Below are positions 2,298 through 23,199 of a stretch of DNA of 44,346 nt, piece by piece. The notes under the pieces are model-generated. The model saw only the letters and a program-made list of their open reading frames with translations. It searched no databases and was not told the origin of the DNA. This stretch comes from Bacillota bacterium (GTDB lineage: Bacteria; Bacillota; Desulfitobacteriia; Desulfitobacteriales; JAJXUE01): NCBI GenBank assembly GCA_021811155.1, contig JAJZPO010000016.1:1-44346 (forward strand), in the 5' to 3' direction. Position 1 is the first letter of the stretch. Every line of letters begins with the position of its first letter. A program made the position numbers and the translations under genes.

Positions 2298-3575
2298 TTA
2301 TCGTTCCACCTTCATCAGGTTCTCAGTGGATTCGGGCATTTTATCGGCGTATTTGCTGACAAACATGGTGGGAATTACGGCGTACAGGGCACAAGCGTTA
2401 ACCAGTTCCTTCTTCCAGGTCCGTTCGTTGGGGAAGTGGGCCTCTGCTTCATGGCCCGGTCCAAAGCCGATGCAGGGAATCCCGTAGCGGCCCATGATGG
2501 AAACCCCATTGGTGGAGAAGGTCCACTTGTCCACAACCGGAGCTTGTTGGAACAGCCCTTCATAGGCATCCACCAGTGTAGAACAAACGGGGTGGTCTGC
2601 CTCAATCAGCCAAGTCGGGAAATAAGACTCAGTGGGATAGACCAGGCCCGTATAAGAAGGCCTTTCATAGGTGTACATTTCAACTTCTGCGCCGGCTGCT
2701 TTCACGGCAGGGAGGTTTTTGATTTCCCGGATGGCAGTCTCATCGCTTTCCCCGGCAGTGAGGCGCCGGTCAATGGAGATTGTGCAGCTGTCGGCTACTG
2801 CGCAGCGGGAGGGCGAGGTGAAGAAGATTTCCGAAACGGTCAGGCTGCCTTTACCCAGGAAAGGGTGGTCCTTAAGGTTTTCATGCAGGGCTCGCAGTTC
2901 GGTCAGAATGCCAGCCATTTTGTAAATGGCGTTGTCCCCCCGCTCGGGTGCGGACCCGTGGCAGCTGACACCTTTGGTGGTCACCTTTATTTCCATCCGT
3001 CCCCTGTGGCCGCGGTAAATCTTGCCGTCCGTTGGTTCCGTGATCACCACAAATTCAGGCTTCAGCTTGTCTTCATTGATGATGTACTGCCAGCACAGGC
3101 CGTCGCAGTCCTCTTCCTGCACCGAGCCGACTACTACCAGGGTATAATCGTCCTCCAGGCCCAGATCCTTAATGATTTTGCCCGCGTAGACCATAGAGGC
3201 CATTCCGCCGGTTTGGTCCGTCGCTCCGCGGCCGATGATAATTTCGTCATCTTCGTAGCCTTGGTATGGGTCGTACTGCCACAGTTCCGGGTTACCCACA
3301 CCCACGGTGTCGATATGGGCATCCATGGCAATCAGGTGTTTGCCGTGGCCGATATATCCCAGGATATTACCCATGGGGTCTATTTCAACCTTGTCAAATC
3401 CCACCTTTTCCATTTCCTCTTTGATGCGCAAAACTACTTTTTCCTCTTGGCAGCTTTCGCTCGGAATAGCTATCAGGTCCCGCAAAAACCGGCTCATTTC
3501 CGGCTGGTATTTTTGCGCTAGCTCCAGTACTTTGGCGAAATCCTTCTGCAAGACAAATTCCCCTTTCTGTTGCAT
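2298..3575 (-). CDS. ygeY: YgeY family M20 peptidase/deacylase
   Basis: [36 protein letters not shown]20 family motifs and cluster context. Confidence 0.9.
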
Positions 3576-4025: not shown

Positions 4026-5354
4026 CTAAAACCTTTCCCACAGTTTGCTGCTCAGTTCACGGGACTTGGCACAGATTTCGGCTTCGTCCAGGCCGGCGAG
4101 GCGCCTTTCTTCCATGACCACCTTGCCGTTGATGATGGTGGTAGCTACGGATCTGCCTGACACCCCAAACAGGATATGCCCGTCCGCATTGTTTTCACTC
4201 AAAGGTGTGGGTGGATCGTAATCCACGATGATCACGTCAGCATAAGCGCCGGGGGCCAGTTTGCCGAGGGGGTGCGGGAAGTAGGAGGCGGCAATCTCCG
4301 GGTTATGCCTGAAAAGCATAGCTGGCGCTTCTCCCCAGGCGACACTGGGGTGGCCCTGCTGGTGCTTGTGCAGGATATTGGCTACCTTGTAGGATTCAAA
4401 CATGTCGCTGGTGTAACCGTCCGTGCCTAGGCCGACCCTTACGCCTGCACCCAACATGGACAGTACCGGGGCGCAGCCAACGGCGTTACCCATATTCGAC
4501 TCAGGATTGTGCACCACATTGGCTGAAGCATCCCGCAGGATTTCAATTTCCTTTTCGTTGATATGCACGCAGTGGGCGGCAATGGATTTGGGCCCCAGGA
4601 TGCCGTAACCGTTCAGTCTTTCAACTACCCGTTTTCCTGACTTGGCCAAAGAATCGTTCAGATCAGAAATTCCCTCCGCCACATGGACATGAAAGCCGGT
4701 TCCCAGGCCGGAATTTTCCTCACAGCAGCGGTCCAGGCTGGCATCACTCAGGGTGAGGGATGCGTGCAGGCCAAACATACCCCTGCTCATCCCGTCCCCG
4801 GCCTTGTTGGCGTGGCGGATGAATTCCACGTTCTCCCTCACGCCTTCCTCCATCACGGCCTCGCCGTCACGGTCGGATACCTCATAGCAGAGACAGCTCC
4901 GTACACCTGCGGCCCGGGCTGCTTTTTCCAGGGTAAATAGGCTGTCCCGCACGGCGCCGGGGCTGGCATGGTGGTCGAAGATGGTGGTTGTGCCGTTCTT
5001 GATGCAGTCAATCAAAGGCACCATGGCGCTGTAGTAAATGTCCTCCAGAGTCAGGACCTTGTCCAGACGCCACCAAAGGCGCTCCAGTATTTCCACAAAA
5101 TTTTGCGGCGGGGCGTCTTCTAAGCCCATGCCGCGGGCAAAGGTGCTGTAAAGGTGCATATGGGTATTGATCATGCCCGGCATGATTACCCTGCCCCTAG
5201 CATCGATAAACTTGGCGTCAGGATATTTCGCCCTGAGTGCAGCGGTTGAACTCACTTCGCTGATTAAATTGTCCTTAATGGCCACACATCCCTCAGCCAG
5301 ATACGGCTGATTTTCATCCCGGGTGATAACCCGTCCATTTCCGACCAACAGCAT
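4026..5354 (-). CDS. ssnA: SsnA-type aminohydrolase/amidohydrolase
   Basis: MLLVGNGRVITRDENQPYLAEG..., INTHMHLYSTFARGM, DGYTSDM; amidohydrolase family between ygeY and ygfK. Confidence 0.88.
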   Translation of the reverse strand: MLLVGNGRVITRDENQPYLAEGCVAIKDNLISEVSSTAALRAKYPDAKFIDARGRVIMPGMINTHMHLYSTFARGMGLEDAPPQNFVEILERLWWRLDKVLTLEDIYYSAMVPLIDCIKNGTTTIFDHHASPGAVRDSLFTLEKAARAAGVRSCLCYEVSDRDGEAVMEEGVRENVEFIRHANKAGDGMSRGMFGLHASLTLSDASLDRCCEENSGLGTGFHVHVAEGISDLNDSLAKSGKRVVERLNGYGILGPKSIAAHCVHINEKEIEILRDASANVVHNPESNMGNAVGCAPVLSMLGAGVRVGLGTDGYTSDMFESYKVANILHKHQQGHPSVAWGEAPAMLFRHNPEIAASYFPHPLGKLAPGAYADVIIVDYDPPTPLSENNADGHILFGVSGRSVATTIINGKVVMEERRLAGLDEAEICAKSRELSSKLWERF

Positions 5355-5487: not shown

Positions 5488-8400
5488 TTAGAATAAATAA
5501 CTGTGCCGGTTAAATATGGCCCAGATTGTATCAGCAATTTCGCTTGCCACATTCGCCCCGGTCCGGCCGCCGGCGTCAAATTTCACATCAACCACCCGGC
5601 CCTCGGCGCGGAGCCTAAACAGCGGCTCGGCTCCGTTTTCCAGCAGCAGGAAGCCCGCATTGTCGCTGTTCAGGAAGTCCTCTTCAGTCCAGAACAGGGT
5701 GAGCTTGTCCTGATAGGGAGCTCCGTCATTGGGACAGAAAATGGCGCAGTTGCCGCATTCATTGCACATCCCATCCACATGGACCACCTGGTTTAAGTTC
5801 TTCAGGCCGGCCGACTGGACTTTGACCGCCACGTTGGCCCGGTTCGGGCAGACCTCGCTGCAGATGTTGCAGACATAGCCGCACTCCAGGCACCTGCCCG
5901 GTTCCTGTTCCAACCCGCCTGCAGCCTTGAGGACGCCCTTACGGCCGCCGATTTCCTTCAGCCGCTTTTCCTGATCAAAGCCTGCCTGAACCCCTGTCTC
6001 CTGACGGGCCAGGTTTTCTTTGGCCAGGATAGCCCTGGCAGCTTTTGTCCCATGTGCAATCCCCTCAACCACAGTTGCCGGTCCGTACAGAGCATCCCCG
6101 CCGATGAACACATTGGCCAGGTTGGTTTCCAGGGTTTCCGGGTTGACCTGGATATTGCCTTTGGCGTCAACCTCGATACCGTTTTGCTGCAAGAGGCCGT
6201 AATCCGCCTCTTCACCGATAGCCGACAATACGCTATCAGCCGCAATCTCCTCAAACTCCCCGGCTTTCTCCACCGGACTGCGCCGGCCTGAAGCATCGGG
6301 TGCGCCCAATTCCATCCGTTGGCATCCGAGTACGCCGTCCTGCAGCGAAAGCGGGGAAAGCAGTTGCTTGAAAATTACACCTTCCTGCAGGGCCAGTTCC
6401 AGTTCCTCCCGGTCCGCGGGCATATAGTCTCTGGTCCGCCTGTATATGATATATACCTTTTCCACGCCTTTGACCCGCAGGGCAGCCCTGGCCGCATCCA
6501 TAGCGGAGTTGCCGCCCCCGATCACTGCCACGTTTTTGCCAAGGCCGAGCCCGGCATGATTGCGCTTGAATTCTTCCAGGAAAGGTATGGCTCCCATGAC
6601 GCGCCGGGTGTCCCCTGTCAAGCCCAGCGCTCTGCTTTTCCCGGCGCCGATGGCCAGGTAGATGTAAGCAAAACCCCTGTCCTTAAGTTCAGCAATGGAA
6701 AAGTCAGCATTTACTCCCATCTCAAACTTGACTCCCATTTTCCGTACCAGTTCCACATCATTGGCAATGGCCTCCGGGAATATCCGGAAGTTGGGAATCA
6801 CGTATTCCACCGTGCCGCCGGCCTTTTCCCTTTTATCAAAAATTGTCACGTCGAGGCCCGCCTTGGCCAGAAAATAGCCAGCCGCTAACCCGGACGGCCC
6901 AGCCCCGATCACCGCCACTTTGGCGGCGCTTTTGGCTTCAGCCGGAGCAAGTTTGCTCATAAATGCCTGATAACCGATTTCCGCCGCCACCAGTTTCAGG
7001 GAGCGGATCTGCACCGATTCATCGTAATCCAGGCGGGTGCACTTGGTCATGCAGTTGTGGTTGCAGATTGTCCCTGTGATAAAGGGCAGCGGGTTTTTCG
7101 CCACAATCACCTCATAGGCCTCCAGGTACCGCCCCTCGCCTACCAGGCGGATATACTCCGGAATGTCCTGACCGATGGGACAGCCGTTGGTGCAAGGCGC
7201 TACGAAGCAGTCTGTCAGTGGCAGCTTGCGGCTGAGCTTCCGGCTGCCCACCCTTCTCTTTTCTTTCAGGTGGTTGGGATCGGCCAATGCAGCGGCAGCC
7301 AGTTCAGCAAGTTTCTCCAGGTCTATTTTATCGGATTCCGCATTGTCCAGGAAAGGCTCAACCGCAGCAGCAATCTGCTGCAGGCGCAGATATCCGCCTG
7401 GTTTGAGCAGGGAAGTGGCCAGGGTAATGGGCCGGATGCCGGTCGCAAAGATGTCAGCGATATTAAAGAAGTCTGCGCCGCCGGAATAGGAAATCTTCAG
7501 CTCCCCGCCAAATTCCGCTGCCAGCTTCAGGGCCAGATTGATAGTCAAAGGATAGAGCGCCCGGCCCGACATGTACATCTCATCGCCCGGCAGTTCGCCC
7601 CGGGTAATCTTCACAGGCAAAGTGTTGGAGAGCTTGACCCCAAACTCCCTGTTGTTTTCTTTGGCAAACTGCTTAAGCCTTTTCAGCATCTCCACGCCGT
7701 CAGCATACTGCAGGTCGTGGGTAAAGGATTCCTCCTTGAGCTGGACATAGGTGTAACCCATCTGGTCAAAGGTGTTCCTGACATACCGGTAGCCTAGCAG
7801 TGTCGGATTCATTTTCACAAAGGTATGCAGCCTTTTCTCGCCGAGGAGGTACCTTGAAATAGCTTCTATCTCGGCAGGCGGACAGCCGTGCAGAGTGGAC
7901 AAGGTGATGGAATTGCAGATGTTGGCCGAAATTCCGGCGACAAATTTGGCATCCGCCTGCTTAAACTTATATACTTCTTCCAGCAAAACATCCCTGCACT
8001 CTTTAAAAATCGCCGTATTGGAAGCGTCTTTCAAACCCTCAATAAAGCCGTCCACCTTGGGGGACTGGATGCCCTTAAGGTCGTAACCCACGCTCATGTT
8101 AAACATGAAGCGGCGCTCATCCAGCCCGAAAACTTCTTTTTGCAGCACATGCAGCATGAACCATGCCTTGACATACTCCTCAAAAGCGCCCTCAATGGAC
8201 AGTTCGGTTGACCACTCCGTGTTGTAGCACTCATCCTCCGCCCTGATGCACGGTTTGGGAAACTCAAGCTTATCCAGGATCTGGACTGTTTTCAGCTCAA
8301 AAAACCTGCTCCCGCTCAGGAAGGAAGCGATGATATTTTGCGCCAGTTGGGTGTTTGGGCCTGCAGCCGGGCCTACAGGGGTATCGATTTTTTCGCCGAA

Positions 8401-8538
8401 GAGCTTGACATGGTTTGCGCCGGCCTTTTGGTAAAACTTGTCTGCGGCAATGCCGAGGACGGTCTGGTGTTGCTCATATTCCTCCAGCGCCCAGCTCAAC
8501 AGTTTCTTGAACGGGATTTGTCGCATAATGTCACTCAT
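5488..8538 (-). CDS. ygfK: YgfK-like oxidoreductase (DHOD-like N-terminus, GltD-like FAD/NAD module, C-terminal 4Fe-4S motifs)
   Basis: CFVAPCTNGCPIGQDIPEYI, IGAGPSGLAAGYFLAKAGLDVTIFDK, CLECGYVCNICSEVCPNRAN, CNECGNCAIFCPNDGAP. Confidence 0.92.
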   Translation of the reverse strand: MSDIMRQIPFKKLLSWALEEYEQHQTVLGIAADKFYQKAGANHVKLFGEKIDTPVGPAAGPNTQLAQNIIASFLSGSRFFELKTVQILDKLEFPKPCIRAEDECYNTEWSTELSIEGAFEEYVKAWFMLHVLQKEVFGLDERRFMFNMSVGYDLKGIQSPKVDGFIEGLKDASNTAIFKECRDVLLEEVYKFKQADAKFVAGISANICNSITLSTLHGCPPAEIEAISRYLLGEKRLHTFVKMNPTLLGYRYVRNTFDQMGYTYVQLKEESFTHDLQYADGVEMLKRLKQFAKENNREFGVKLSNTLPVKITRGELPGDEMYMSGRALYPLTINLALKLAAEFGGELKISYSGGADFFNIADIFATGIRPITLATSLLKPGGYLRLQQIAAAVEPFLDNAESDKIDLEKLAELAAAALADPNHLKEKRRVGSRKLSRKLPLTDCFVAPCTNGCPIGQDIPEYIRLVGEGRYLEAYEVIVAKNPLPFITGTICNHNCMTKCTRLDYDESVQIRSLKLVAAEIGYQAFMSKLAPAEAKSAAKVAVIGAGPSGLAAGYFLAKAGLDVTIFDKREKAGGTVEYVIPNFRIFPEAIANDVELVRKMGVKFEMGVNADFSIAELKDRGFAYIYLAIGAGKSRALGLTGDTRRVMGAIPFLEEFKRNHAGLGLGKNVAVIGGGNSAMDAARAALRVKGVEKVYIIYRRTRDYMPADREELELALQEGVIFKQLLSPLSLQDGVLGCQRMELGAPDASGRRSPVEKAGEFEEIAADSVLSAIGEEADYGLLQQNGIEVDAKGNIQVNPETLETNLANVFIGGDALYGPATVVEGIAHGTKAARAILAKENLARQETGVQAGFDQEKRLKEIGGRKGVLKAAGGLEQEPGRCLECGYVCNICSEVCPNRANVAVKVQSAGLKNLNQVVHVDGMCNECGNCAIFCPNDGAPYQDKLTLFWTEEDFLNSDNAGFLLLENGAEPLFRLRAEGRVVDVKFDAGGRTGANVASEIADTIWAIFNRHSYLF

Positions 8539-8766: not shown

Positions 8767-10539
8767 CTAGGCAAAAGTCTTGGTCTCAGCTATATTATAC
8801 TCTTTGATCTTTCTGTATAGGGTTGCCCGGCTGATGCCCAAGAGCTTAGCCGCGTCCCCTTTGTGCCCGTCGCTGTTGGCCAGGGCCAGCGCCTGGGTGA
8901 TGGCCTCCCGCTCCAGCGCTCTCAGATTGAGGGAAGTATTCCCTTTGGCAGGTTTGGAGTCGACCCTAATGCGTTTCGGCAAGGATTCAACCGTAAGGTA
9001 GTCCCCGACCGCCATGGTCACGCAGTACTCGATTACGTTGCCCAATTCGCGTACATTGCCCGGCCAGGAGTACCGGCTCATGATTTCTGCCGCCTGGGGC
9101 GTAAACTCCCGCACCTTTTTGCCGTTAACTTCACAATAATAGTCAAGATAATACTGGGTGAGGACCGGTATATCTTCCTGCCGTTCCCGCAGGGGCGGAA
9201 TGGTCAGCGGAATGACGTTCAAACGGTAATACAAATCCTCCCGGAACTCGCCGGTCTGCACCATCTTCTCCATGTCACGGTGGGTGGCGGCGATCACCCT
9301 GACGTCCACCGGAATCGAGCGGGAACTGCCGATGCGTTCAACCCGCCTCTCCTGTAAAACCCGCAGCAGCTTGACCTGCAGGTGCAAAGGCATATCGCCG
9401 ATCTCATCGAGGAAAATCGTCCCGTTATGGGCCAGTTCAAATTTACCCAGCTTGCCGCCCCGTTTCGCCCCTGTAAAAGCCCCTTCTTCATAACCGAAGA
9501 GTTCGCTTTCCAGCAGATTTTCCGGGATGGCGCCGCAGTTCAGGGCGATGAAGGCGTTGTTTTTGCGTTTGCTGCTCTGGTGAATGGCCCGGGCCAGCAG
9601 TTCCTTGCCTGTGCCGCTTTCACCCTGGATCAGGATGGTGGAATTACTGGGCGCCACCTTTAGGGCCATTTCCTTCAGTTCCTGCATCTTGGCGCAATTG
9701 CCAATAATCTGAGAGAAGTGGGTCTCGATCTCACTCACGCTGGCTGCTTTAATCAGCTTCTTGATTTGCTGCATATCTTTGAGCGTGATTACCGCACCTT
9801 CGATCATCCCATCTTTCTTGATAGGCACAGCGTCGCAGTATAGTTGCGCCGCCACACGCCTGCCTTTGATTTGACCGGAAAACTGCTCCCCGCTTTCGAT
9901 GGATTTCCACAGTTTCTTGTCATCCAGCAGTTGGGATAAGGACATCTCCTGCTCTGCAACGATATCCAGCATTTTGGCGCCTAGGGCGTTAAAATGCGTA
10001 ATTATTTTACTGTCATTCACGAGCAGGATCCCGTCGTGAAGCAGGTTCAGCACCGTGAGGAGTTGGTTTGTCAGCAGTTCCCGCTGCCTGTTCTGGTCGT
10101 TTTCAACAATTTTCCCTACCAGAAGTTCCGCCATTTTGTCCAGGAAAAGCAGCAGGGATTCTTTGTTGTCCATGAGACGTTTCGACTGCGCTTCATCAAA
10201 ACTGATCAGACCGATGACACCGACAATCTGTTCTTCGATCCGGATAGGCAGGGCTACCTCAGCAAATTCGAGGCAATTGCCGCGGCAGATACAGGGCCGG
10301 CACAATTCATTGTACCCCGGGTTGTCGATAATTACCGGCATGCCGGTCCGCAGCACGTGGCGGTAAACAAAACCGTCGTCCATGGCGCGGTCGCAGCGGC
10401 TGCTGTATTTGCCTGTGCCGGCTATTCTAACCAGGTCCGCATCGGCAATCTCCACTTCGATTTTCAGCGCTGCGGCGATGGCCTCAGCAGTTTGCTGCAC
10501 CGTAGTTTTTATGTCCCGCAGTTGATACATGACCAACAC
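8767..10539 (-). CDS. sigma54-dependent transcriptional activator with N-terminal GAF/PAS-like sensor
   Basis: [44 protein letters not shown], Fis-type HTH GDAAKLLGISRATLYRKIKEY; Cys motif CRPCICRGNC. Confidence 0.95.
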   Translation of the reverse strand: MLVMYQLRDIKTTVQQTAEAIAAALKIEVEIADADLVRIAGTGKYSSRCDRAMDDGFVYRHVLRTGMPVIIDNPGYNELCRPCICRGNCLEFAEVALPIRIEEQIVGVIGLISFDEAQSKRLMDNKESLLLFLDKMAELLVGKIVENDQNRQRELLTNQLLTVLNLLHDGILLVNDSKIITHFNALGAKMLDIVAEQEMSLSQLLDDKKLWKSIESGEQFSGQIKGRRVAAQLYCDAVPIKKDGMIEGAVITLKDMQQIKKLIKAASVSEIETHFSQIIGNCAKMQELKEMALKVAPSNSTILIQGESGTGKELLARAIHQSSKRKNNAFIALNCGAIPENLLESELFGYEEGAFTGAKRGGKLGKFELAHNGTIFLDEIGDMPLHLQVKLLRVLQERRVERIGSSRSIPVDVRVIAATHRDMEKMVQTGEFREDLYYRLNVIPLTIPPLRERQEDIPVLTQYYLDYYCEVNGKKVREFTPQAAEIMSRYSWPGNVRELGNVIEYCVTMAVGDYLTVESLPKRIRVDSKPAKGNTSLNLRALEREAITQALALANSDGHKGDAAKLLGISRATLYRKIKEYNIAETKTFA

Positions 10540-10697: not shown

Positions 10698-10750
10698 TTC
10701 TTTTTTTATTCGTCAAATTGAGACTATCTCCTACTCAACAGCAAGATGGG

Positions 10751-10767: not shown

Positions 10768-10774
10768 AAAACTC

Positions 10775-10993: not shown

Positions 10994-12217
10994 CTACTTT
11001 GCGGCCGAGGCATATTCTCCGTCCCAGACTATACTGCGGTATGTTGCGGGATCTGTATCCCCTTCGGTATTAAAGAGCAAAATGTGTGATTCCCTGTTTA
11101 GACCCAGGCTCTCTTTCGCCTCCCGCAAGCCTTTGTCCTGCAGCAAAGTCCAAAGCAATCCTGTTGTCACCGCTCCGGATTCACCGGATATAATTCTGGG
11201 GTCATTGCTTAGGGGGGAGCCAAGGATGCGCATCCCTTTGGCAGCGACCCAATCCGGGCAGGACACAAACATCTCGCTGTAATCACGTAAAATCCGCCAG
11301 CCAATCAGGTTAGGCTCACCGCAGGCCAAGCCGGCCATAATCGTCGCCATGTCCCCGCCAACCGTGCGGGGCTTGCCATCGCCGGCCTGAGCCGACTTAA
11401 ACAGGCAGTTGGCCTGATCGGCCTCAACTATTACCATTTTGGGCCTCTGCTCCTGGAACAGCGAGGTAAAGAAGCCCTCCACCGAACCGGCCAATGCTCC
11501 CACACCGGCCTGCACCACGACGTGGCTGGGCCTGGCAACGCCAATCTCCTGTAATTGGGTCAAAGCTTCCGCAGACATTGTCCCATAGCCCTGCATAATC
11601 CACGCCGGTATTTCCTCATACCCTTCCCAGGCCGTATCCTGCACCACAACCCAGCCGTTTTCCCTAGCTTTCGTTGCGGTCATGCGCACTGCATCGTCAT
11701 AATTCAGGTCGGTGATGGTGGCTTCAGCGCCCTCAGCCAGGATATTTGCGAGTCTCTGCTTTGCCGAGCCTTTAGGCATGTATACTACAGCCTTTTGATG
11801 CAGCTGCCGCGCTGTCCAGGCCACACCCCGGCCGTGATTGCCGTCCGTGGTGGTAGCAAAAGTAATGTCACCCAGCTGACGTTTAACCGCTTCTGAAGTC
11901 AGGACTTCATAGGGCATTTCGCTGATGTCCCGGTTGAGGTGCCCGGCAAGATATCTGGCCATGGCATAGGAACCGCCCAGCGCTTTGAAAGCGTTGAGGC
12001 CGAAACGGTAGGATTCGTCTTTCACATAGATGCCAGCTACCCCAAGAGCCTTGGCCAGGTATTTTAAGCTGCGCAGCGGCGTTGGTTGGTACTGTGGAAA
12101 TGTACGGTGGAAATTTCTTGCCTTGTCGATTTCAGCCTGGTTAAAAAGGCGGGTCGCCGCCCCTTGACCCCTCTTTATTTGCATTTTGTTGGCTGTCCAT
12201 TTGATTGTTTCGCCCAT
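10994..12217 (-). CDS. ygeX: diaminopropionate ammonia-lyase
   Basis: PLP fold-type II; YVKDESYRFGLNAFKALGGSYA, ATTTDGNHGRGVAW, VQAGVGALAGSVEGFF. Confidence 0.93.
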   Translation of the reverse strand: MGETIKWTANKMQIKRGQGAATRLFNQAEIDKARNFHRTFPQYQPTPLRSLKYLAKALGVAGIYVKDESYRFGLNAFKALGGSYAMARYLAGHLNRDISEMPYEVLTSEAVKRQLGDITFATTTDGNHGRGVAWTARQLHQKAVVYMPKGSAKQRLANILAEGAEATITDLNYDDAVRMTATKARENGWVVVQDTAWEGYEEIPAWIMQGYGTMSAEALTQLQEIGVARPSHVVVQAGVGALAGSVEGFFTSLFQEQRPKMVIVEADQANCLFKSAQAGDGKPRTVGGDMATIMAGLACGEPNLIGWRILRDYSEMFVSCPDWVAAKGMRILGSPLSNDPRIISGESGAVTTGLLWTLLQDKGLREAKESLGLNRESHILLFNTEGDTDPATYRSIVWDGEYASAAK

Positions 12218-12236: not shown

Positions 12237-12617
12237 CTACTCCGCAGTAGCGACCGCTTCAATTTCAATGTCCGCGTCAAGCGGCAGCCGCGCTACCTGG
12301 ACAGTGCTTCTGGCTGGGTAGTCCCCGCTGAAGTATGAGCCGTAAATCTGATTGACAACCTGAAAATTGCCGAGATCCTGCAGGAAAATTGTAGTCTTGA
12401 CAATTTTGCTCAGGTCTGAGCCTGAGGCTGCGAGAATTGCCGCCAGGTTGTCCAGGCACTGCTTGGTTTGGGCCTCAATCCCTGCGGGGATTTTGCCTGT
12501 TTCCGGGTTGAGCGGCAGTTGGCCTGAAACAAAAACCAAATTGCCCGACCTGTTTGCCTGTGAGTACGGGCCAATGGCTTTTGGCGCTTGGGCTGTACTG
12601 ATAATTTGTTTTGACAT
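12237..12617 (-). CDS. ridA: RidA family reactive-intermediate deaminase
   Basis: MSKQIISTAQAPKAIGPYSQANRSGNLVFVSGQLPLNPETG...PARSTVQVARLPLDADIEIEAVA. Confidence 0.95.
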   Translation of the reverse strand: MSKQIISTAQAPKAIGPYSQANRSGNLVFVSGQLPLNPETGKIPAGIEAQTKQCLDNLAAILAASGSDLSKIVKTTIFLQDLGNFQVVNQIYGSYFSGDYPARSTVQVARLPLDADIEIEAVATAE

Positions 12618-12801: not shown

Positions 12802-13284
12802 CTACTCCTCACACTGGCGCTTGCCCGCTTCCAGCGACTTCTCCGCGGCTTTGAGGATGTTTTTATACCCTGTGCAGCGGCAGAAGTGGCCGGACAGTTC
12901 CCGTTTCAGTTCTTCCCGCGTATACTCCCTGCCGCTCTCCAAGAGGGCAGTGGTGGTCAGGACCAGCCCCGGGGTGCAAAAACCGCACTGTACAGCCCCT
13001 TCTTCCACAAAGGCCTGTTGTACAACCGAGAGTTCTCCGTCCTGGGCAATTCCCTCGATAGTCCTGATTTCCCTGCCGTCGGCCCATACCGCCAGGTAAA
13101 TGCAGGAGTCCACCGTCATTCCGTCCACCAGAACGGTGCAGGCGCCGCATTCGCCCACGCCGCACCCCTTCTTCACCCCGGTATAACCCAGGCGGTACCT
13201 CAGCACGTCCAAGAGGGACTCGCGCACGTCCACTTCAAAGTTTACTGCCTTACCGTTCAGCGTAAACGAGATTTTCTTAGCCAA
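12802..13284 (-). CDS. xanthine dehydrogenase-type 2Fe-2S subunit
   Basis: AKKISFTLNGKAVNFEVDVRESLLDVLRYRLGYTGVKKGCGVGECGACTVLVDG...CGFCTPG...CRCTGY; TTG start at 13284 preceded by GGAGGTG and overlapping the upstream stop; the longer ORF to 13392 looks like an over-extension. Confidence 0.92.
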   Translation of the reverse strand: MAKKISFTLNGKAVNFEVDVRESLLDVLRYRLGYTGVKKGCGVGECGACTVLVDGMTVDSCIYLAVWADGREIRTIEGIAQDGELSVVQQAFVEEGAVQCGFCTPGLVLTTTALLESGREYTREELKRELSGHFCRCTGYKNILKAAEKSLEAGKRQCEE

Positions 13285-14167
13285 TTTCAGCACCTCCAGC
13301 CCTAACGATTGCGACATGCAGCGCGCGCTGCGTAAGTTCTTCCACCAGGTGCTCCCGGTACTCCCTGGAGGCCCGCCAGGATGTTCTGGCATTGGTTGAT
13401 TTCACTGCCAGTCTGCCAATCCCGGCCAGGGTTTCAGCGTAAATAGCCTTGCCTTTGGCGAACTCTTCCGCTTCCACGCATCTTAGCGGGGTGGGCCCTG
13501 CGACGCCAAGGCCGATTTTAACTTCCCGGAACACATCCCCGCTGATTTTGCACATCACGGATACCCCGAGCGTAGCGATATCCATTGCTTTGCGCATGGC
13601 AAATTTGATATAATGGCCGCCAAAGCCCCTGAAGCCGGCGGGGGAAATCAGGAATTCACTCAGCATCTCGTCGGGTTTGAGATCCACTTTGCCCGGGCCA
13701 AGGTAAAATTCCTGAACCGGAACCACCCTTTCCCCGGCGCTGCTTCTGAGCCTGAGCCTGGCATCAAGCGCAAACAGGGTGGAAGCGCTGTCAGCGGAGG
13801 TCGCACCGTTACAAATGTTGCCGCCAATGGTTGCCACATTGCGTATTTGCGGCCCGCCCATAGAGACCGCCGCCTCAGCCAAAGCAGGAATGTTATTGTG
13901 AATTATGGGCTCATGAAAGATTTGCGCGAAAGTAGCCAGGGCTCCGATTACAATCGTCCCATCGGCCAGCTGTTCAATCCGTTCCAGTTCCTTGATCTTG
14001 CGGATGCTGAGAAGCTCAGCCCCTTCCATCTGGCCATGGCGCAGTTTAATCAAGACATCCGTGCCGCCCGCTATGATTTTCAGCCTGGGGTTGGAGGCCA
14101 GGAGCGCGACGGCATCACTGACACTCTCCGCTTCAATATAGCCTTGAATATCGTACATCGCCTTCAC
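13277..14167 (-). CDS. xanthine dehydrogenase-type FAD-binding subunit
   Basis: IIAGGTDVLIKLRHGQ, ATIGGNICNGATSADSA; CO_deh_flav family. Confidence 0.93.
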   Translation of the reverse strand: MKAMYDIQGYIEAESVSDAVALLASNPRLKIIAGGTDVLIKLRHGQMEGAELLSIRKIKELERIEQLADGTIVIGALATFAQIFHEPIIHNNIPALAEAAVSMGGPQIRNVATIGGNICNGATSADSASTLFALDARLRLRSSAGERVVPVQEFYLGPGKVDLKPDEMLSEFLISPAGFRGFGGHYIKFAMRKAMDIATLGVSVMCKISGDVFREVKIGLGVAGPTPLRCVEAEEFAKGKAIYAETLAGIGRLAVKSTNARTSWRASREYREHLVEELTQRALHVAIVRAGGAEIG

Positions 14168-14174: not shown

Positions 14175-16466
14175 TTATATTAATCCAGCTTGCTTAAACT
14201 TTTCGAAGACCCGCTGCGGGTTCATGGGCAGCCGGTTCAGCGCTACACCGGTTGCGGCAAAAACAGCGTTACGGAGGGCGGGAGCCGGAGAAATAACCGG
14301 CGGTTCGCCCAGCGCTTTCACGCCAAAAGCCCCGGTCGGGTCCTCGGTCTCCACAAACCCAACCCCGATATCCGGCGTATCCATAATGGTCGGGAGCTTG
14401 TAATCCAAGAGGTTGTTGTTAAGGGTTTTGCCTGTTTTTTCATCAAACAAGAGCTGTTCTGAGAGCGCATAGCCTATACCCATGCTCACGCCGCCGTGAA
14501 CCTGGCCTTGCGCCAGCTGCGGGTTAACAATCCTGCCCGAATCATGCACATTATAAATCTCCAGCACTTCGATTTTTCCGGTCTTGATATCCACTTCAAC
14601 CTCGGCAAAGGTAACCCCGAAAGGAATGGCGTTGACACGGGCATTATTCGAGGTATCACTGGTGAGCGGCCTGCCGAACACCGTATCGTAGTAAGTTTGC
14701 ATGGCTGCTTGCTCCAGCGGCATGACCACTTCGCCGTTGTGCTTGAAAACGATATTCCGCTCTCTCAAATCCAGTGTTTCTGCGGGTATGTCTGTCATAC
14801 CCCAGACAAAATCCAACAGCTTGGCTTTCACTTCTTCCGCAGCCTTCTTCACCGCCATGCCGGTAATGTAGGTTTGGCGGGAGGCATAGGAGCCGGTGTC
14901 AAAGGGGGTGATGTCCGTGTCCTGGGTAGAAATTACATGCACCATTTCCACCGGCAGGCCCAGCACTTCCGCCACCATTTGGGCAAACACCGTATCGCTC
15001 CCCTGACCGATTTCCGTGGCCCCTACCTGCAGCTGCACAGACCCGTCCTGGTTCATGACAATCCGGGCGCCCGCGACTTCTATGCTCACCGGATGAGTGC
15101 CTGAAGCATAGCTGAAGCAGGCCATGCCCACCCCCCGGCGCTTATCCCCGCTTTGATTTTTGTATAGCTCCCTTTTCTCATCCCAGCGGATCAGTTCCTT
15201 GCCCTTGGCGACACATTCACGGATGCCGCAGCTCAAGATCCTGTTCTTGCTCAGCAAATCCACATGCCCCACCTGCACGAAGTTTTTCTGCCGCAGCTCG
15301 ATAGGATCCATATCAAGCTTGTGCGCAATCTCGTCCAGGTGCGATTCATAGGCGAAAAAGATCTGGGGCGTGCCGTAGCCGCGCATGGCCCCGGCTACAG
15401 GCAAATTGGTATAAACCGTAACAGGCTCATATTTCATTGCTTGGGCCGGGTAGAGATAGCGGAATTTGCCTCCGCCGGAACTGGCGATTGAGTGACCGTG
15501 GGAAGCATAAGCCCCGGTGTTGGAAACAGCAGCAATATAAATCCCGTTGATCTTGCCATCCTTAGTAAGCCCGGTCTTGATCCTGAACTTAAAAGCATGG
15601 CGGGTTCTGGTATCAATCATCGCTTCTTCCCGCGACAACTCCAGCTTCACGGGCCGCCCCCCCACAGCCAGGGTCATGGCCGCGTTCAATGGCTCAATCG
15701 TCACATCCTGCTTGTTGCCAAACCCGCCGCCGACATAGGGCTTGATCACGCGCACCCCGCCCCAGGGAATATCCAGCGCCTGTCCCACTATCCGGCGGAC
15801 AATGTGGGGAATCTGGGTGGAGGTCACGATTACGAGCCGGCCTTCCCCGTCCAGATAAGCGTAGGAAACCTGGTTCTCCAGGTGGCAGTGCTGTACTGGG
15901 CTCGTTTCATATTCTCCCTCAAACACAAAATCCGATTCGCTGAAAGCCGCCTCCAAATCGCCGAAGCTGTAACCCCGTGAAGCGAGAATATTTTGCTCAC
16001 AGTCCTCATGGATGAGGGGAGCCCCTTCCCGCATGGCCGCTTCAGGCGTGGTCAAGGCTTCCAGCACCTCATACTCGATTTCGATTAATTTGAGCGCTTT
16101 TTCAGCAACCAGTTCATCCACAGCTACCACCGCAGCCACGGAGTCCCCCACGAAACGGGCTTTGTCAGTCAGAATCAGCCTGTCTGCCTTATCGCGGTGA
16201 CTTGGGTCGAGGGAATAGGGATGACCGGCCGTAGGAAACTTAACCTTCGGCACAGTCAGATGCGTCAATACCGCTTCGACGCCCGGCAGCGCCCTGGCTT
16301 TGCTGACATCGATGCTTTTAATAATGGCATGGGCATAAGGACTCCTGAGGATCTTCCCTACCAACATGTCCCGCTCGAAAAAATCATCCGTATACTTTGC
16401 CTTGCCCGTCACTTTGGCGACTGCATCAACCCGCTTTACGCTCTTGCCTACTACTGAGTACGGCAT
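14175..16466 (-). CDS. xanthine dehydrogenase-type molybdenum-binding subunit
   Basis: MPYSVVGKSVKRVDAVAKVTGKAKYTDDF, GGFGNKQD, AMRGYGTPQ, GVKALGEPP; start moved to 16466 because GGAGG precedes it and the ORF-track start at 16556 overlaps the -12 element. Confidence 0.92.
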   Translation of the reverse strand: MPYSVVGKSVKRVDAVAKVTGKAKYTDDFFERDMLVGKILRSPYAHAIIKSIDVSKARALPGVEAVLTHLTVPKVKFPTAGHPYSLDPSHRDKADRLILTDKARFVGDSVAAVVAVDELVAEKALKLIEIEYEVLEALTTPEAAMREGAPLIHEDCEQNILASRGYSFGDLEAAFSESDFVFEGEYETSPVQHCHLENQVSYAYLDGEGRLVIVTSTQIPHIVRRIVGQALDIPWGGVRVIKPYVGGGFGNKQDVTIEPLNAAMTLAVGGRPVKLELSREEAMIDTRTRHAFKFRIKTGLTKDGKINGIYIAAVSNTGAYASHGHSIASSGGGKFRYLYPAQAMKYEPVTVYTNLPVAGAMRGYGTPQIFFAYESHLDEIAHKLDMDPIELRQKNFVQVGHVDLLSKNRILSCGIRECVAKGKELIRWDEKRELYKNQSGDKRRGVGMACFSYASGTHPVSIEVAGARIVMNQDGSVQLQVGATEIGQGSDTVFAQMVAEVLGLPVEMVHVISTQDTDITPFDTGSYASRQTYITGMAVKKAAEEVKAKLLDFVWGMTDIPAETLDLRERNIVFKHNGEVVMPLEQAAMQTYYDTVFGRPLTSDTSNNARVNAIPFGVTFAEVEVDIKTGKIEVLEIYNVHDSGRIVNPQLAQGQVHGGVSMGIGYALSEQLLFDEKTGKTLNNNLLDYKLPTIMDTPDIGVGFVETEDPTGAFGVKALGEPPVISPAPALRNAVFAATGVALNRLPMNPQRVFEKFKQAGLI

Positions 16467-16552
16467 TTTTTTCCCTCCGTTCAACCTTGGCGTTCTATGG
16501 GTCAAGGGTTCCCCACCTTTTGCACAACCCTGGTCCCATTTCAATTTCTTAT

Positions 16553-16567
16553 GCAAAATTCATGCCA
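16553..16567 (-). promoter_or_regulatory. putative sigma54 promoter of xdh operon
   Basis: minus strand TGGCATGAATTTTGC, 87 bp upstream of the ATG. Confidence 0.87.
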
Positions 16568-16860: not shown

Positions 16861-18219
16861 CTATTTGCGCAGCCGCATGATTTCCTGGTCGTAATGTTCT
16901 ACTTTGGCGTATTCTTTCTCCCAGAATTCCGGCTTGCGCATTTCATCGAGATATGCCTTGCTGTAGCCGAAGGGCAGCCAGTCTTTCTCTTTTTGTTTAT
17001 AAAGCTGTTCCTTAGCCGCGTCGCTGCGGAAGTCAAAGACATTGTCCGTATTCATTTTGGTGAAGATATCGCGGGCCCAGCGCCTGAGAACAAAGTTTTC
17101 CGTCTCCAGATAGCGCTGTTCCAATTCTGCCAAAACGGACGGGTAGCGGTCAAAGCCGTCGGTGGCGATTGTCACCACATTGTCATCCGGGCCCAGCTTC
17201 AGGTAATGCGCCATCTTGATGGCGCCAAGGATATTGCAGATACCGGATACGCCGAAGAGGTCCCGCAGCGCCAGGGCCTGTTCTCTTGAAACACCCATTT
17301 CCGCCAGGACTTCCGCGCCGTCCTGTGTCACTTTCAGGCCGCGTACGGCATCGTCATCCGGGATCAGGGCCACAAAGTCTGTGGCGTTGATGTTATGGAT
17401 CAGGGTGCACATCTTGTCCCCAATCCCTTCGATGCGGTGCTGTCCCCGGCCGCCGTCAGCCAAAGTGGAACATTCATAAGGTTCGAGGGCAACAACTTTG
17501 GCTTCCGGGAAGGCCTGTTTGATCTGGTCCCCGGCGGCGATGGTTCCTGCCGAACCTGGCGCGGAGGTAAAGCAGGCAATCCTGCCGTTGCCGATCCCCT
17601 TAACCGCTTCGATGGCAGAATTCCCGGTGACATAACGGTGGAAACGGTAATTGGGCATCAGTTCAAACTGGGCCAGAGGACGGTTCTTGGGATCCTTCTT
17701 CAGCTCATAGGTGCGCTGCAAGGTCAGGATTACATCGGATTCTGTTCCCGGTGTCAGATCCAATTTCGCGCCGTACTTGCGAATCCGGTCATAGCGCTCT
17801 TTGCTCATGTTGTCCGGCATGATTACCACGGCATCATAACCCATGAGATTGCAGATATAGGACACTCCAATCCCGAAATTGCCGGTGGAAGGTCCGAGGA
17901 TGGTGTGCTCGCCGGGCAGAATGTCCCCGTCCGCACAGCCTTCAATCAAAGTGGCATAGGCCGGGCCAACTTTATGCGACCCCGAAGGGAAGTATTTTCC
18001 AAGCATTACGACGATATTGGCCTGAGTGCCTGTCAGTTCCTTAGGCAGAACAATTTTGCGCACATCACCGCCGGAGTCTTTCCAGGTAATATTAAACAGA
18101 TTAATAGGGTCAAGTTCATTGCTCTCTTTTGCTTTGAGCGCCTGCGCACGGACTTCACTGTCCATGGTTTCCGGATGCAGCATTTCCGTATAGGTAGGTC
18201 CAAAAGGAATCTTCGCCAT
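16861..18219 (-). CDS. PLP-dependent fold-type II enzyme (cysteine/threonine synthase-like), substrate unknown
   Basis: GKYFPSGSHKVGPAYATL (PLP Lys), GPSTGNFGIGVSYICNLMGYDAVVIMPDNMSKERYDRIRKYGA, TSAPGSAGTIAAG. Confidence 0.85.
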   Translation of the reverse strand: MAKIPFGPTYTEMLHPETMDSEVRAQALKAKESNELDPINLFNITWKDSGGDVRKIVLPKELTGTQANIVVMLGKYFPSGSHKVGPAYATLIEGCADGDILPGEHTILGPSTGNFGIGVSYICNLMGYDAVVIMPDNMSKERYDRIRKYGAKLDLTPGTESDVILTLQRTYELKKDPKNRPLAQFELMPNYRFHRYVTGNSAIEAVKGIGNGRIACFTSAPGSAGTIAAGDQIKQAFPEAKVVALEPYECSTLADGGRGQHRIEGIGDKMCTLIHNINATDFVALIPDDDAVRGLKVTQDGAEVLAEMGVSREQALALRDLFGVSGICNILGAIKMAHYLKLGPDDNVVTIATDGFDRYPSVLAELEQRYLETENFVLRRWARDIFTKMNTDNVFDFRSDAAKEQLYKQKEKDWLPFGYSKAYLDEMRKPEFWEKEYAKVEHYDQEIMRLRK

Positions 18220-18358
18220 TTTCTTATCCTCCTTGGTTATTACAGGTTTTTCTGCATGAGTGTTTCACATACCGCTTTGGCAGTCCAAGGATTCTCCCGC
18301 AAGTGTCATCCCCCTCAACCAAGGGATGGCCTTTTTCTCTCACCCTGGAATTCCGATT

Positions 18359-19606
18359 TTATGCCAGTCCCCTCTGTTCCAGCTGCAATACCAGCTCGCC
18401 CAGAGAAGGCTCAACCTTCATAGGTTCTCCGGCAGCCGCAATGGCGTTTTTCACATCTTTCAGCCCATTGCCGGTTACTATGGCTACCACCTTTTCATCG
18501 GGCCCCACAATCCCCTGGGCCACCAGACGCTTCAATCCGGCCAGACCCGTCACTCCCGCCGGTTCACCAAAAATGCCGCTGGTCCTGCCCAGCTCTCGCA
18601 TAGCCGCCAGGATCTCATCATCGCTCACCGCCACCATTGTGCCGCCGGACTGCCGCACCGCCCGCAAGGCTTTTTCCGGATTGCGCGGTACCCCGACAGC
18701 GATACTGTCCGCCAGGGTGTTCTCAGCGGCGGGATGCCAGGGCCGGTCCTCCAGGAAAGCGTCCACCAGCGGACTGCAGCCTGTGGACTGAACCCCGGCG
18801 ACTTTGGGCAGCCGGTCAATCCAGCCTGCCCGGTAAAGATCCATAAAGCCTTTCCAAACTCCGGCGATAGTGCATCCGTCACCCACTGACAGCACAACCC
18901 AGTCCGGGGCCTGCCAGTTGAGTTGCTCAGCAATTTCCAGGGCCACGGTTTTCTTGCCCTCCACCAGGTAAGGGTTGATGGCAGCGTTACGGTTGTACCA
19001 CCCCCAGCGCTCGATTGCTTCAGCTGAGAGGCGGAAAGCGTCTTCGTAGGAACCCTGCACACTGATAACATTGGCGCCAAAAACAAGCAGCTGTGCAATC
19101 TTGCCCTGTGGCGCCCTGCCCGGAACAAAGATATAGGTCTTAATTCCCATGGCTGCAGCGCTCCCGGCCAGGGAGGAGGCGGCATTGCCCGTCGAAGAAC
19201 AGGCGATGGTCGAGGAGTTCTCTTCCACGGCCTTGATGACTGCAATCACCGATGCCCTGTCTTTCAAGGATGCGGTGGGGTTCTGGCCGTCATCTTTGAT
19301 ATAAAGGTCATTCATGCCCATGCTCCGGCCCAAACCCACGGGTTTATAGAACGGACTCCAACCCACCCTCAGATGAGGGCGCGGTGTGCCTGGATTAACA
19401 GGCAGAAAAGGGAGGTAGCGGAAGATGGAGTTATCCTTGGAGTTTGAGACCAGCCCACGGGTCGTGGCGCGATTGATGGCGGCATAGTCATACTCCACGT
19501 CCAGGATGCCGTCCTTCGGACCGCACTTCGGGCAGGTATAAATTCCGGGTTTTGTGTCCAATTGTTTGTTGCAGTTGATACAGCGCAACCCCAGGACGTT
19601 TTCCAA
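18359..19606 (-). CDS. thrC: threonine synthase-like PLP enzyme
   Basis: LRCINCNKQ...YTCPKCG N-terminal zinc-ribbon-like motif, KDDGQNPTASLKDRAS, SSTGNAASSLAGSAA; TTG start at 19606 preceded by GAGGTG. Confidence 0.82.
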   Translation of the reverse strand: MENVLGLRCINCNKQLDTKPGIYTCPKCGPKDGILDVEYDYAAINRATTRGLVSNSKDNSIFRYLPFLPVNPGTPRPHLRVGWSPFYKPVGLGRSMGMNDLYIKDDGQNPTASLKDRASVIAVIKAVEENSSTIACSSTGNAASSLAGSAAAMGIKTYIFVPGRAPQGKIAQLLVFGANVISVQGSYEDAFRLSAEAIERWGWYNRNAAINPYLVEGKKTVALEIAEQLNWQAPDWVVLSVGDGCTIAGVWKGFMDLYRAGWIDRLPKVAGVQSTGCSPLVDAFLEDRPWHPAAENTLADSIAVGVPRNPEKALRAVRQSGGTMVAVSDDEILAAMRELGRTSGIFGEPAGVTGLAGLKRLVAQGIVGPDEKVVAIVTGNGLKDVKNAIAAAGEPMKVEPSLGELVLQLEQRGLA

Positions 19607-19630
19607 GTTTATCACCTCGGACAATGATTG

Positions 19631-19655
19631 GGTGGGAAAGGAGGCCTTTCCCACC
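19631..19655. other. intra-operon hairpin between permease and thrC-like gene
   Basis: GGTGGGAAAGG-AGG-CCTTTCCCACC perfect 11-bp stem, no T-tract. Confidence 0.6.
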
Positions 19656-19689
19656 ACCCATTCTGCGTTGTTTCAGATTCAGCAAGGCC

Positions 19690-21042
19690 CTAAGCTACTT
19701 CAACCCCGGCCACTTGCGCGAGTTCTTTTTCCACATCTGCAGTTGATTTCTTGGTGCCGTTGAAGAAAGCGTTCAAGATGATAGCCGTGATGGAACCAAG
19801 GGTAATGCCGCTGTGCACGATCGTTTGGCTCCAGCCAGGCAGCAGCTTGAAGAAATTGGGGGACACGAGCGGGATAAGCCCGACTCCCACGCTGATGGCT
19901 ACTATAAAGATATTGTGGTGGTTGTTCTGAAAGTCCACCTTGGACAAAGTCTTTATGCCGCTGGCGGCCACAATTCCAAACATGGCGATACCGGCGCCGC
20001 CCAATACCGGGTTGGGTACAGAGGCAATAATTGTGGCAAGTTTGGGGAACAGTCCCATGACCACCAGGATGCCTCCGGAGGTTGCCACAACGAAGCGGCT
20101 CTTGACTCCGGTCAATCCAACCAGACCGACGTTCTGGGCAAAGGCCGTATAGGGGAAGGCATTCAGAATGCCGCCCAAGCTGGTTGCCAGTCCATCGGCC
20201 CGCAAGCCCGCAGCCAGTTCTTTTGGCTGAATGGGTTTGTCAATGATCTCGCCGATTGCCAGGAAGTCACCTGTTGATTCAACCATCACTACCAACATAA
20301 CAAGGATGAAGGAGACGATGGCTCCCACATTAAAAGTAGGCATGCCGAAGTGGAAGGGTGTATCGATTCCGAGCAGCGGAGCGGATGCCACACCCGAAAA
20401 ATTAGCCATTCCTAGGGGTATGGCAACTATTAAACCGATAATCAGTCCGAGCAGCACGGCAATATTGGCGATAAATCCTTTAAAAAACTTGTTAATCAAT
20501 AGGATAGCAACCAGGACGACCAATGCTACACCCAGGTAACTTAACTGTCCGTAGTTTGGGTTGCCCACTCCGCCGGCAGCCCAGTCTACACCGACCGGCA
20601 GCAGGGAGACCCCGATAACGGTTATCACGCTTCCGGTTACTACGGGTGGGAAAAATATCAGCAGCCTACTGAAAAATGGCGCAACCAAGAAAGTAAAAAG
20701 ACCGGATATGATGATTGCTCCGTAGATGGAGGTTAGCCCCGAAGATTTCGCCAGCATAATCATAGGTGTTACGGCGGCAAAAGTCACACCCTGAATTACC
20801 GGAATACGAATCCCGATAAACTTGCCAAGACCCAGAGTTTGTAACAGCGTTGCAATACCACAGGTGAATAAGTCTGCGTTAATCAGAAATGCGGTCTGTT
20901 CCTTGCTCAAACCGGCGGCCCCTGCAATGATAAGCGGCACGGCCACAGCCCCTGCGTACATCGCCAACACATGTTGCAGGCCATAGAGCAAAAGTTTCCC
21001 GGCAGGCAGTACTTCGTCGACTGGATGTTTTGCGTTGCTCAT
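19690..21042 (-). CDS. NCS2 family xanthine/uracil permease
   Basis: YGLQHVLAMYAGAVAVPLIIAGAAGLS..., STGDFLAIGEI, LNAFPYTAFAQNVGLVGLTGVKSRFV. Confidence 0.93.
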   Translation of the reverse strand: MSNAKHPVDEVLPAGKLLLYGLQHVLAMYAGAVAVPLIIAGAAGLSKEQTAFLINADLFTCGIATLLQTLGLGKFIGIRIPVIQGVTFAAVTPMIMLAKSSGLTSIYGAIIISGLFTFLVAPFFSRLLIFFPPVVTGSVITVIGVSLLPVGVDWAAGGVGNPNYGQLSYLGVALVVLVAILLINKFFKGFIANIAVLLGLIIGLIVAIPLGMANFSGVASAPLLGIDTPFHFGMPTFNVGAIVSFILVMLVVMVESTGDFLAIGEIIDKPIQPKELAAGLRADGLATSLGGILNAFPYTAFAQNVGLVGLTGVKSRFVVATSGGILVVMGLFPKLATIIASVPNPVLGGAGIAMFGIVAASGIKTLSKVDFQNNHHNIFIVAISVGVGLIPLVSPNFFKLLPGWSQTIVHSGITLGSITAIILNAFFNGTKKSTADVEKELAQVAGVEVA

Positions 21043-21184
21043 TTACGTCCCTCCTTACTGTCATTGCGGGTATTTGGTTAAAGAACCATGTCACCTCCGT
21101 CAAAACCCCTTCCAGTGGATCCCGCATTTCCCTGAAAGTTCAAAATATTTTACTTCTCGATAGTTTGTCGAAACTTGTCTTGGA

Positions 21185-21199
21185 GCAAGATTTATGCCA
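21185..21199 (-). promoter_or_regulatory. putative sigma54 promoter of permease-thrC-PLP operon
   Basis: minus strand TGGCATAAATCTTGC. Confidence 0.85.
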
Positions 21200-21429: not shown

Positions 21430-23199
21430 TTAAGCTAAACCATAACGAGCCAGCTTTCTGTATAAGGTCGCCAAACCGATCCCCAAGGCCGCAGCAGCCC
21501 TTTCCTTACCCTGGACAGTAAGCCCAAACTCCTGCAGGCAGAGGCGGATGGTTTCCCGTTCCAGGTCTTCGAGCCTGTACGACCTGTCCTCCTGGCGCAG
21601 CATCTTGACTCTGGCGGGCAGATGCTGCACATCAAGGCTGGAACCATCCGCCAGGTTCATGGCATATTCAATTACATTCTGCAGTTCCCGCACGTTTCCG
21701 GGCCAGGAGTACTTGCCCAGCTGGGTGCGAAAAGCCTCAGACATGGACTGTACATTCTTGTTAAGCTGCAAATTGTACACGTGGATAAAGTGAGAACAGA
21801 TCATGTCCAGGTCTTGTTTACGCTCCCGCAAGGGCATAATCTGCATGGGTATGACGTTTATCCGGTAATATAAATCCTCACGGAATTCTCCTTGGGCCAT
21901 AAGCTGCTCAATATCGCGGTGGGTTGCGGCTATTACCCGGACATCAACAGGTATGGGGTTAAGGCCTCCTATCCTCTCAATCTGCCGTTCCTGCAGCACG
22001 CGCAAAATCTTCGACTGTAAAAACAGCGGCATATCCCCGATTTCATCCAGGAAAAGGGTGCCTTTGCTGGCCAATTCAAACTTGCCAAGCTTGCCGCCTT
22101 TGCGCGCCCCGGTAAAAGCGCCATCCTCGTAACCAAACAACTCGCTCTCCAACAGCGCTTCAGGTATAGCGGTGCAGTTGATGGCCACAAAGGGGCCGTG
22201 ACTGCGGGGACTCAGATTGTGAATTGCCCGCGCCAGCATCTCTTTGCCAGTACCGCTTTCCCCGCGAATCAGAATGGTTGATTTGCTCGCAGCCACTATT
22301 TTTGCCCGTTCCCGCAGTTGGCGCATTGATTCGCTGTCACCCAGGATATCCTCCAGGGTATAATTGGCATCTTGCCCGGAGAGCCGGTTCACCATGCGGC
22401 TGATTTCAGCCAATGGGCGAGCCGTCACAGCTACGCTGTTCACCCCGCCCTCCGTGATCACAGGCAGTGCCCTCACTAAGAGCTGAAGCCGGTTTTGCCT
22501 CGCAGCAAGCTGAACCTCCCGCTCGAACTCCCCTTTTTCGCCAACATGCAGGATTTCTCCGGCCGTTTTTTGGCCCAGCAGGGCGCTCAGCTCCGTCCCG
22601 CTCTCAAGCGGCATTCCCGCAAAAAAGCGCTGCATAACCCGGTTGTAGTGCAGGATCTTCCCCTCAAGATCGACGGTCAGAATCCCCTCGTCCAGGCAGT
22701 CCAGGATAGAATTAAGATACCGGTTGGAAGAGACCAAACCATTGAGCAGTTCCTGTTCTTTCAGCTTCAACCCTATGGTATCAGCCATTTTGCTCAGAAA
22801 GACCAGGTATGAGTCACGGCGCTCTTCAACCAGCCTGGCTTGAGGCTCAGAAAAGCAAATCAGGCCGATTACCCCCGCCGCCTCACCGTTGACATTAATT
22901 GGGGACACAACTTCGTATTTTTCCGGACAGTTCCCGTGGTGTTTACACGAAGCACACAGCGGATGCCAGCCCGGTTCCCCAATCACCAGCTGCTTGCCGG
23001 TCCTGAGCACCTCGCTGTAAACGAAACCTTCCTTAGCCATGGATTGCCCTAAGCAGTTGCCATATCTCCCCGTCCCGGCCACACGCATCAGGTTCCGGTC
23101 CGCAATCTCGACATCAATATTGATCACGGTCGAAATTGCTTCAGCAACCTGCTGAGCATAGTCCTGCACAGCCATCAACTCAACCATCACAACCACCAC
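21430..23199 (-). CDS. sigma54-dependent transcriptional activator, paralogue of 8767-10539
   Basis: [44 protein letters not shown]; Cys motif [10 protein letters not shown]; Fis-type HTH. Confidence 0.95.

Follow-up and report, generated by a model that had tools for sequence, protein, structure and literature searches.

The reductive uric-acid pathway has been resolved biochemically in vitro, and its cluster comprises XdhD, YgfK or UacX, SsnA, HyuA, YgeW or UacY, YgeY and YgeX (PMC12507026). Contig JAJZPO010000016.1 of the Bacillota bacterium assembly GCA_021811155.1 (positions 1 to 44,346; this whole stretch of 44,346 nucleotides is called the window below) carries the same markers as the clusters of E. 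coli and C. difficile, namely YgfK, SsnA, YgeY, xanthine dehydrogenase (XDH) and carbamate kinase. It differs from them in that its carbamoyltransferase is not a curated YgeW, and in that it contains two extra fold-type II pyridoxal 5'-phosphate (PLP) enzymes, a threonine-synthase-like protein (ThrC-like) and a CysK-like protein (PLP452), which replace YgeX in most of the genomes that carry them. Relatives of the pair also carry a UacX-type dihydroorotate-dehydrogenase homologue (DHO_dh) and a hydantoinase. We consider it rather probable that ThrC-like and PLP452 together serve as a PLP-dependent terminal module, an alternative to YgeX, in the reductive (yanthine) pathway of uric-acid and xanthine degradation.

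The distribution of the pair across the phylum bears most directly on this proposal. In a sample of 250 genomes drawn evenly from the Bacillota rather than by PLP452 similarity, which are not phylogenetically independent, ThrC-like was present in 52, from about two dozen families, and all 52 also encoded a PLP452 homologue (36 to 100% identity; Fisher p = 5e-44, uncorrected for relatedness). YgeY was found in 51 of these 52 genomes and SsnA in 50. Among the 56 genomes of the sample with both SsnA and YgeY, 39 had ThrC-like and PLP452 without YgeX, 11 had all three, five had YgeX only, and one had neither ThrC-like nor YgeX. A second set of 50 genomes, picked for a close PLP452 orthologue, included 49 without a YgeX over the cut-off, with E. 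coli serving as the positive control. Among cultured carriers of the pair, Acididesulfobacillus acetoxydans has YgeX as well and Moorella mulderi lacks it. On these counts, the pathway markers in this phylum are usually accompanied by the pair, which mostly replaces YgeX. The preliminary description of this DNA had regarded the two enzymes as an extension of the cluster; they do coexist with YgeX here, but they usually occur without it and look like a substitute.

Examination of gene neighborhoods revealed the same association. A scan of GTDB genomes yielded 360 PLP452 relatives, and the best 80 of the 360 were fetched; in the combined non-redundant set, whose loci were selected by PLP452 similarity, PLP452 was present in 82 loci. 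These contained ThrC-like (78 loci), YgeY (66), a carbamoyltransferase (64), SsnA (47), DHO_dh (40), adenine deaminase (36), a hydantoinase (30 plus 10) and XDH subunits, while YgeX occurred in only nine. The comparison of close homologues proposed earlier thus shows the 452-aa gene to be strongly linked to purine clusters across the Bacillota. ThrC-like lies directly upstream of PLP452 on the same strand in 64 loci, and because about three quarters of the gaps measure -8 to +5 bp, the arrangement suggests translational coupling. A serine hydroxymethyltransferase (SHMT) gene stands directly upstream of ThrC-like in L056, L057, L059, L060 and L072; in L065 it separates ThrC-like from PLP452. 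The PLP452 loci showed no other lyase candidate that recurs.

Several of these loci have further features. A protein of 175-178 aa recurs in L064, L068, L072, L077, L095, L100, L106 and L125, often directly upstream of PLP452, and its L095 member is a helix-turn-helix plus cupin regulator. Loci from Izemoplasmatales, Acholeplasmataceae and Erysipelotrichaceae (for example L070, L089 and L098) hold a complete-looking purine cluster in wall-less or small-genome bacteria, comprising hydantoinase, SsnA, a UacX-type enzyme, XDH, ThrC-like, PLP452, YgeY and carbamoyltransferase, to which many such loci add adenine deaminase and a cytidine/deoxycytidylate-type deaminase.

On the evidence of sequence, neither ThrC-like nor PLP452 is a housekeeping enzyme. 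The genome encodes eight PF00291 proteins, including a CysK and a separate canonical ThrC inside hom-thrC-thrB (L001), and the possibility raised earlier that the threonine-synthase-like protein might be the genome's only ThrC is therefore false. In the tree, ThrC-like and canonical ThrC form separate clades, with support of 99/96 and 100/99. One paralogue in the tree, a PALP protein (G000:C51) considered as IlvA, is instead TrpB by the start of its sequence. ThrC-like resembles ThrC and cysteate synthase in its ThrC fold, catalytic Lys, STGN loop and N-terminal C-x2-C...C-x2-C ribbon, which is also found in the PRK08197 model; the catalytic Lys and the Asn-loop equivalents are invariant across the family. 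It passes the thrC model TIGR00260 (226.7 versus 167.1 bits), falls narrowly under PRK08197 (286.7 versus 303), misses the other ThrC equivalogs, and remains well under the cysteate synthase model TIGR03844 (100 versus 324.9 bits); the YgeX model TIGR03528 is not among its best 25 families. What separates it from ThrC and cysteate synthase is the replacement of canonical ThrC residues in 73 of 73 ThrC-like sequences: T88A, S155A (in 72; G in one), R160L/M and N188D, accompanied throughout by A189G and G190C. These positions are invariant among the genome's own ThrC plus three ThrCs of known structure, and the T. thermophilus numbering was read from the alignment. We take T88, S155, R160 and N188 to be the residues that bind the phosphate of phosphohomoserine in T. 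thermophilus ThrC. Structural neighbors of the ThrC-like AlphaFold model include serine racemase and dehydratase; the models of both proteins confirm the folds but point to no substrate.

PLP452 shares the CysK core, with Q184 at the position of the CysK Gln, but is only 22-30% identical to the CysK structures in the Foldseek list and scores far below the cysteine-synthase (CysK/CysM) cut-off (134.2 versus 344.15 bits) and that of TIGR03528 (25 versus 532 bits). It differs from CysK and from Fn1055 of Fusobacterium nucleatum (PDB 5b53) in a C-terminal extension of ~90 residues, in the conserved Lys269, His275 and Asn276, and in a genomic context of purine rather than sulfur metabolism. Across 75 relatives, 211 of the 452 positions are invariant. 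Lys83, the Asn-loop S111-T112-G113-N114 and the motif HRIEGIGDK at 261-269, which contains Asp268, can be recognized; the catalytic Lys, Asn-loop and PLP loop are conserved in 76 of 76 sequences, except for A224 (74), and HRIEGIGDK is present in all 76, where the CysK counterpart is HKIQGIGAG. ThrC-like and PLP452 are fold-type II enzymes in the same genomic and pathway slot as YgeX, but they belong to other clades, and because both carry STGN where YgeX has TDGNHG, the Asp of the YgeX Asn-loop is not used by either.

Fn1055 is a cysteine hydroxyl-lyase that makes serine, and Asp232 is described as one of its key catalytic residues (PMC12940168). In a ranking test of wild type against mutant, Asp268 of PLP452 aligned with Asp232: the unchanged query preferred wild type 5b53 to the D232N mutant 5b55 (19.3/17.1 bits), and a D268N query reversed the ranking (17.4/19.7 bits). 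Glu264 was rejected as the match, given that an E264D query did not raise the wild-type score. Neither a shorter peptide nor a generic CysK peptide gave a direct PLP452-Fn1055 alignment. Other Desulfitobacteriales-like genomes contain a PLP452 paralogue of ~495 aa (37% identical) in the same slot adjoining ThrC-like, usually with YgeX nearby (L045 at 9435-10913, L046, L047, L048 and others), which shares PTGAHK, PSTGN and HRIEGIGDK. Elsewhere in the genome under study (L004), a protein that from its sequence looks like OrtB (2-amino-4-oxopentanoate thiolase subunit) adjoins a gene resembling that of 2,4-diaminopentanoate dehydrogenase; it would be a further fold-type II PLP enzyme, serving anaerobic amino-acid catabolism.

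The open reading frames for a permease, a threonine-synthase-like and a cysteine-synthase-like protein, described earlier as consecutive on the minus strand, were confirmed at their positions (Table 1). The xanthine permease of the earlier description passes the PbuX model TIGR03173 (558.8 bits versus a cut-off of 414). The intergenic gaps in pbuX-ThrC-like-PLP452 are 83 bp and 139 bp, neither is predicted to contain a terminator-like site, and the three genes are presumably cotranscribed. The 432 aa originally assigned to ThrC-like correspond to an open frame that extends to a GTG at 19657; the most likely start is a TTG (19606) shortly after AGGTGA, which would give 415 aa. The sigma-54 site reported at 21185 was recovered, but it is one of several: xdhA (16552), ridA-ygeX (12669), ygfK-ssnA (8606) and ygeY (3687) are each preceded by a similar minus-strand site. 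Because the pbuX site has these counterparts, the pair probably shares a sigma-54 regulon with the whole cluster. Five sites were found where 2.2 are expected by chance, and four of 100 shuffles reach as many; the window also encodes two PrdR-like activators. The XdhA frame from its first start runs into the site at 16552-16567, and because of this overlap at the 5' end the first start is probably ~30 residues too far upstream, with the true start further downstream.

Published expression data include relatives of this arrangement. In the cultured Izemoplasma Xianfuyuplasma coldseepsis zrk13, genes annotated as 'cysteine synthase' and 'threonine synthase' were co-induced by thiosulfate with a xanthine dehydrogenase cluster, together with adenine deaminase, guanine deaminase and 'ornithine carbamoyltransferase' (PMC8397711). 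A comparable cluster in Hujiaoplasma nucleasis zrk29 was induced by DNA plus RNA, and the text names neither PLP enzyme (PMC10470597).

In the mechanism we propose, SsnA, a hydantoinase, a carbamoyltransferase and YgeY would yield 2,3-diaminopropionate (DAP) or its monoureido precursor, and we infer that one of these is the substrate from which the pair strips the C3 substituent. The C3 skeleton would then enter central metabolism as pyruvate and/or serine plus ammonia, which is the job of YgeX in E. coli. PLP452 is favored as a beta-replacing or beta-eliminating enzyme able to use water to form serine, and ThrC-like as a beta-eliminating lyase, a tentative division of labor; overlapping or abutting genes suggest that the two may be physically coupled. 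In the window, where the pair lies beside YgeX, it may provide an additional or parallel exit, and the RidA encoded next to ygeX would fit aminoacrylate chemistry. A serine-forming step is plausible because Asp268 aligns with Asp232 of the cysteine hydroxyl-lyase and because SHMT joins several loci. A narrower version, to which we assign only a modest chance, makes PLP452 a hydroxyl-lyase that substitutes water for the beta-amino or beta-ureido group in DAP or albizziin to give serine, coupled to a dedicated ThrC-derived lyase.

Several points weigh against a terminal module formed by ThrC-like and PLP452. Only 28 of the 52 pairs lie within 10 kb (16 within 500 bp and 12 more up to 10 kb), the rest being more distant or split between contigs; 10 genomes, mostly without SsnA, encode PLP452 homologues but no ThrC-like; SHMT is present in a minority of loci only (6); and the sampled genomes, as noted above, lack phylogenetic independence. 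Since the window holds YgeX too, the YgeX reaction can proceed here without the pair, and the proposal gives no reason for two PLP enzymes when E. coli manages with one. The reactions of the module are computational predictions.

The coexistence of the pair with YgeX in 11 genomes also agrees with a role upstream or sideways of DAP, in which the pair would release urea from albizziin or 3-amino-2-ureidopropionate, or would serve storage or the biosynthesis of serine or cysteine, while an unrecognized enzyme removes DAP. It is unsettled in which order ureido groups are removed (PMC12990295), the carbamoyltransferase of the clusters is not a curated YgeW, and SHMT in the operon of six loci points to serine or glycine. 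We nevertheless regard such a role as unlikely: YgeY, the enzyme that in E. coli carries out the last step of DAP formation, accompanies ThrC-like in all but one genome, so that DAP is to be expected, and the loci offer no other recurrent lyase candidate for its removal. Slightly less likely still is a stereochemical pair, in which an epimerase for D-DAP or for a D-ureido amino acid would work beside an ammonia-lyase restricted to one enantiomer, YgeX alone taking both enantiomers. This would account for two enzymes in place of one, racemases are known among fold-type II enzymes and among the structural neighbors of ThrC-like, YgeX reportedly takes D and L isomers with equal activity (PMC12507026), and the intermediates have been proposed, though this is unsettled, to have the D configuration (PMC12990295); yet PLP452 is nearest to CysK and not to racemases, both enzymes lack the Asn-loop Asp of YgeX, and a racemase would be superfluous in the 11 genomes that have all three. 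An ordinary threonine synthase and cysteine synthase placed near purine genes by chance would agree with the TIGR00260 score and with the two folds, but was rejected as very improbable in view of the separate canonical ThrC and CysK of the genome, the ThrC-defining residues lost in every relative, the well-supported clades, and the co-occurrence with SsnA and PLP452.

Table 1. Features of the purine cluster in the window.
Feature	Position	Strand	Remarks
PLP452, CysK-like fold-type II PLP enzyme, distinct family	16861..18219	-	452 aa, ATG start, GGAGG ribosome site
ThrC-like fold-type II PLP enzyme	18359..19606	-	415 aa, TTG start behind AGGTGA (most likely start)
PbuX xanthine permease, first gene of probable operon	19690..21042	-	450 aa, TIGR03173
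Sigma-54-type promoter-like site TGGCATAAATCTTGCT	21184..21199	-	upstream of pbuX-ThrC-like-PLP452
PrdR-like sigma-54-dependent activator	21430..23199	-	scores below PrdR cut-off
XdhA, molybdenum subunit	14175..16556	-	sigma-54-like site at its 5' end
XdhB, FAD subunit	13277..14167	-	
XdhC-type 2Fe-2S subunit	12802..13392	-	
RidA-family enamine/imine deaminase	12237..12617	-	adjoins ygeX
YgeX, diaminopropionate ammonia-lyase	10994..12217	-	TIGR03528
Second PrdR-like sigma-54-dependent activator	8767..10539	-	
YgfK, reductase of reductive uric-acid pathway	5488..8538	-	1551 bits
SsnA aminohydrolase, pathway marker	4026..5354	-	656 bits
YgeY hydrolase	2298..3575	-	704 bits
Carbamoyltransferase, uncurated clade	1145..2149	-	under YgeW, ornithine and putrescine carbamoyltransferase cut-offs
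Carbamate kinase	192..1142	-	

With SsnA, YgfK, YgeY, XdhABC and carbamate kinase, the window qualifies as a reductive uric-acid cluster. Its YgeX passes the curated cut-off (653.7 versus 532 bits) and makes, with ThrC-like and PLP452, the three fold-type II PLP enzymes counted in the preliminary description. No HyuA hydantoinase was found in the window, and the best candidate in the genome scored 277 bits, under the cut-off of 393. The carbamoyltransferase was labeled YgeW by a first BLAST, a label withdrawn at 182 versus 500 bits; it also scored under the ornithine (246 versus 281) and putrescine (221 versus 500) carbamoyltransferase models, and the strict YgeW model finds only nine of the 250 genomes. 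Despite belonging to no curated type, it is conserved in 64 of the 82 PLP452 loci, mostly adjoining YgeY.

The earlier suggestion, by which the substrates of both enzymes are further amino-acid-like intermediates of purine degradation, is supported by the separate ThrC and by the purine-cluster linkage, their reactions being predictions. We found no report in the literature linking threonine synthase with uric-acid genes, and the arrangement is apparently an undescribed, widespread variant of a known pathway. The published neighborhood survey used Pfam PF00291 as its marker for YgeX (PMC12507026, Fig. 3g), and because this family also matches ThrC-like and PLP452, the survey was blind to the difference between YgeX and the pair.

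The reductive uric-acid pathway, resolved in vitro only in 2025, bears on gout and on gut purine balance, and the pair is relevant to two open questions (PMC12990295), namely in which order ureido groups come off and how the intermediates are configured. If PLP452 were a hydroxyl-lyase, carbon from uric acid would flow into serine, glycine and one-carbon metabolism through a reaction so far undescribed in this pathway. If ThrC-like and PLP452 do form its terminal module, databases mislabel them as threonine and cysteine synthase, and the last step known from E. coli would be a minority solution in the sampled phylum, where most marker-bearing genomes would end the pathway with two uncharacterized enzymes.

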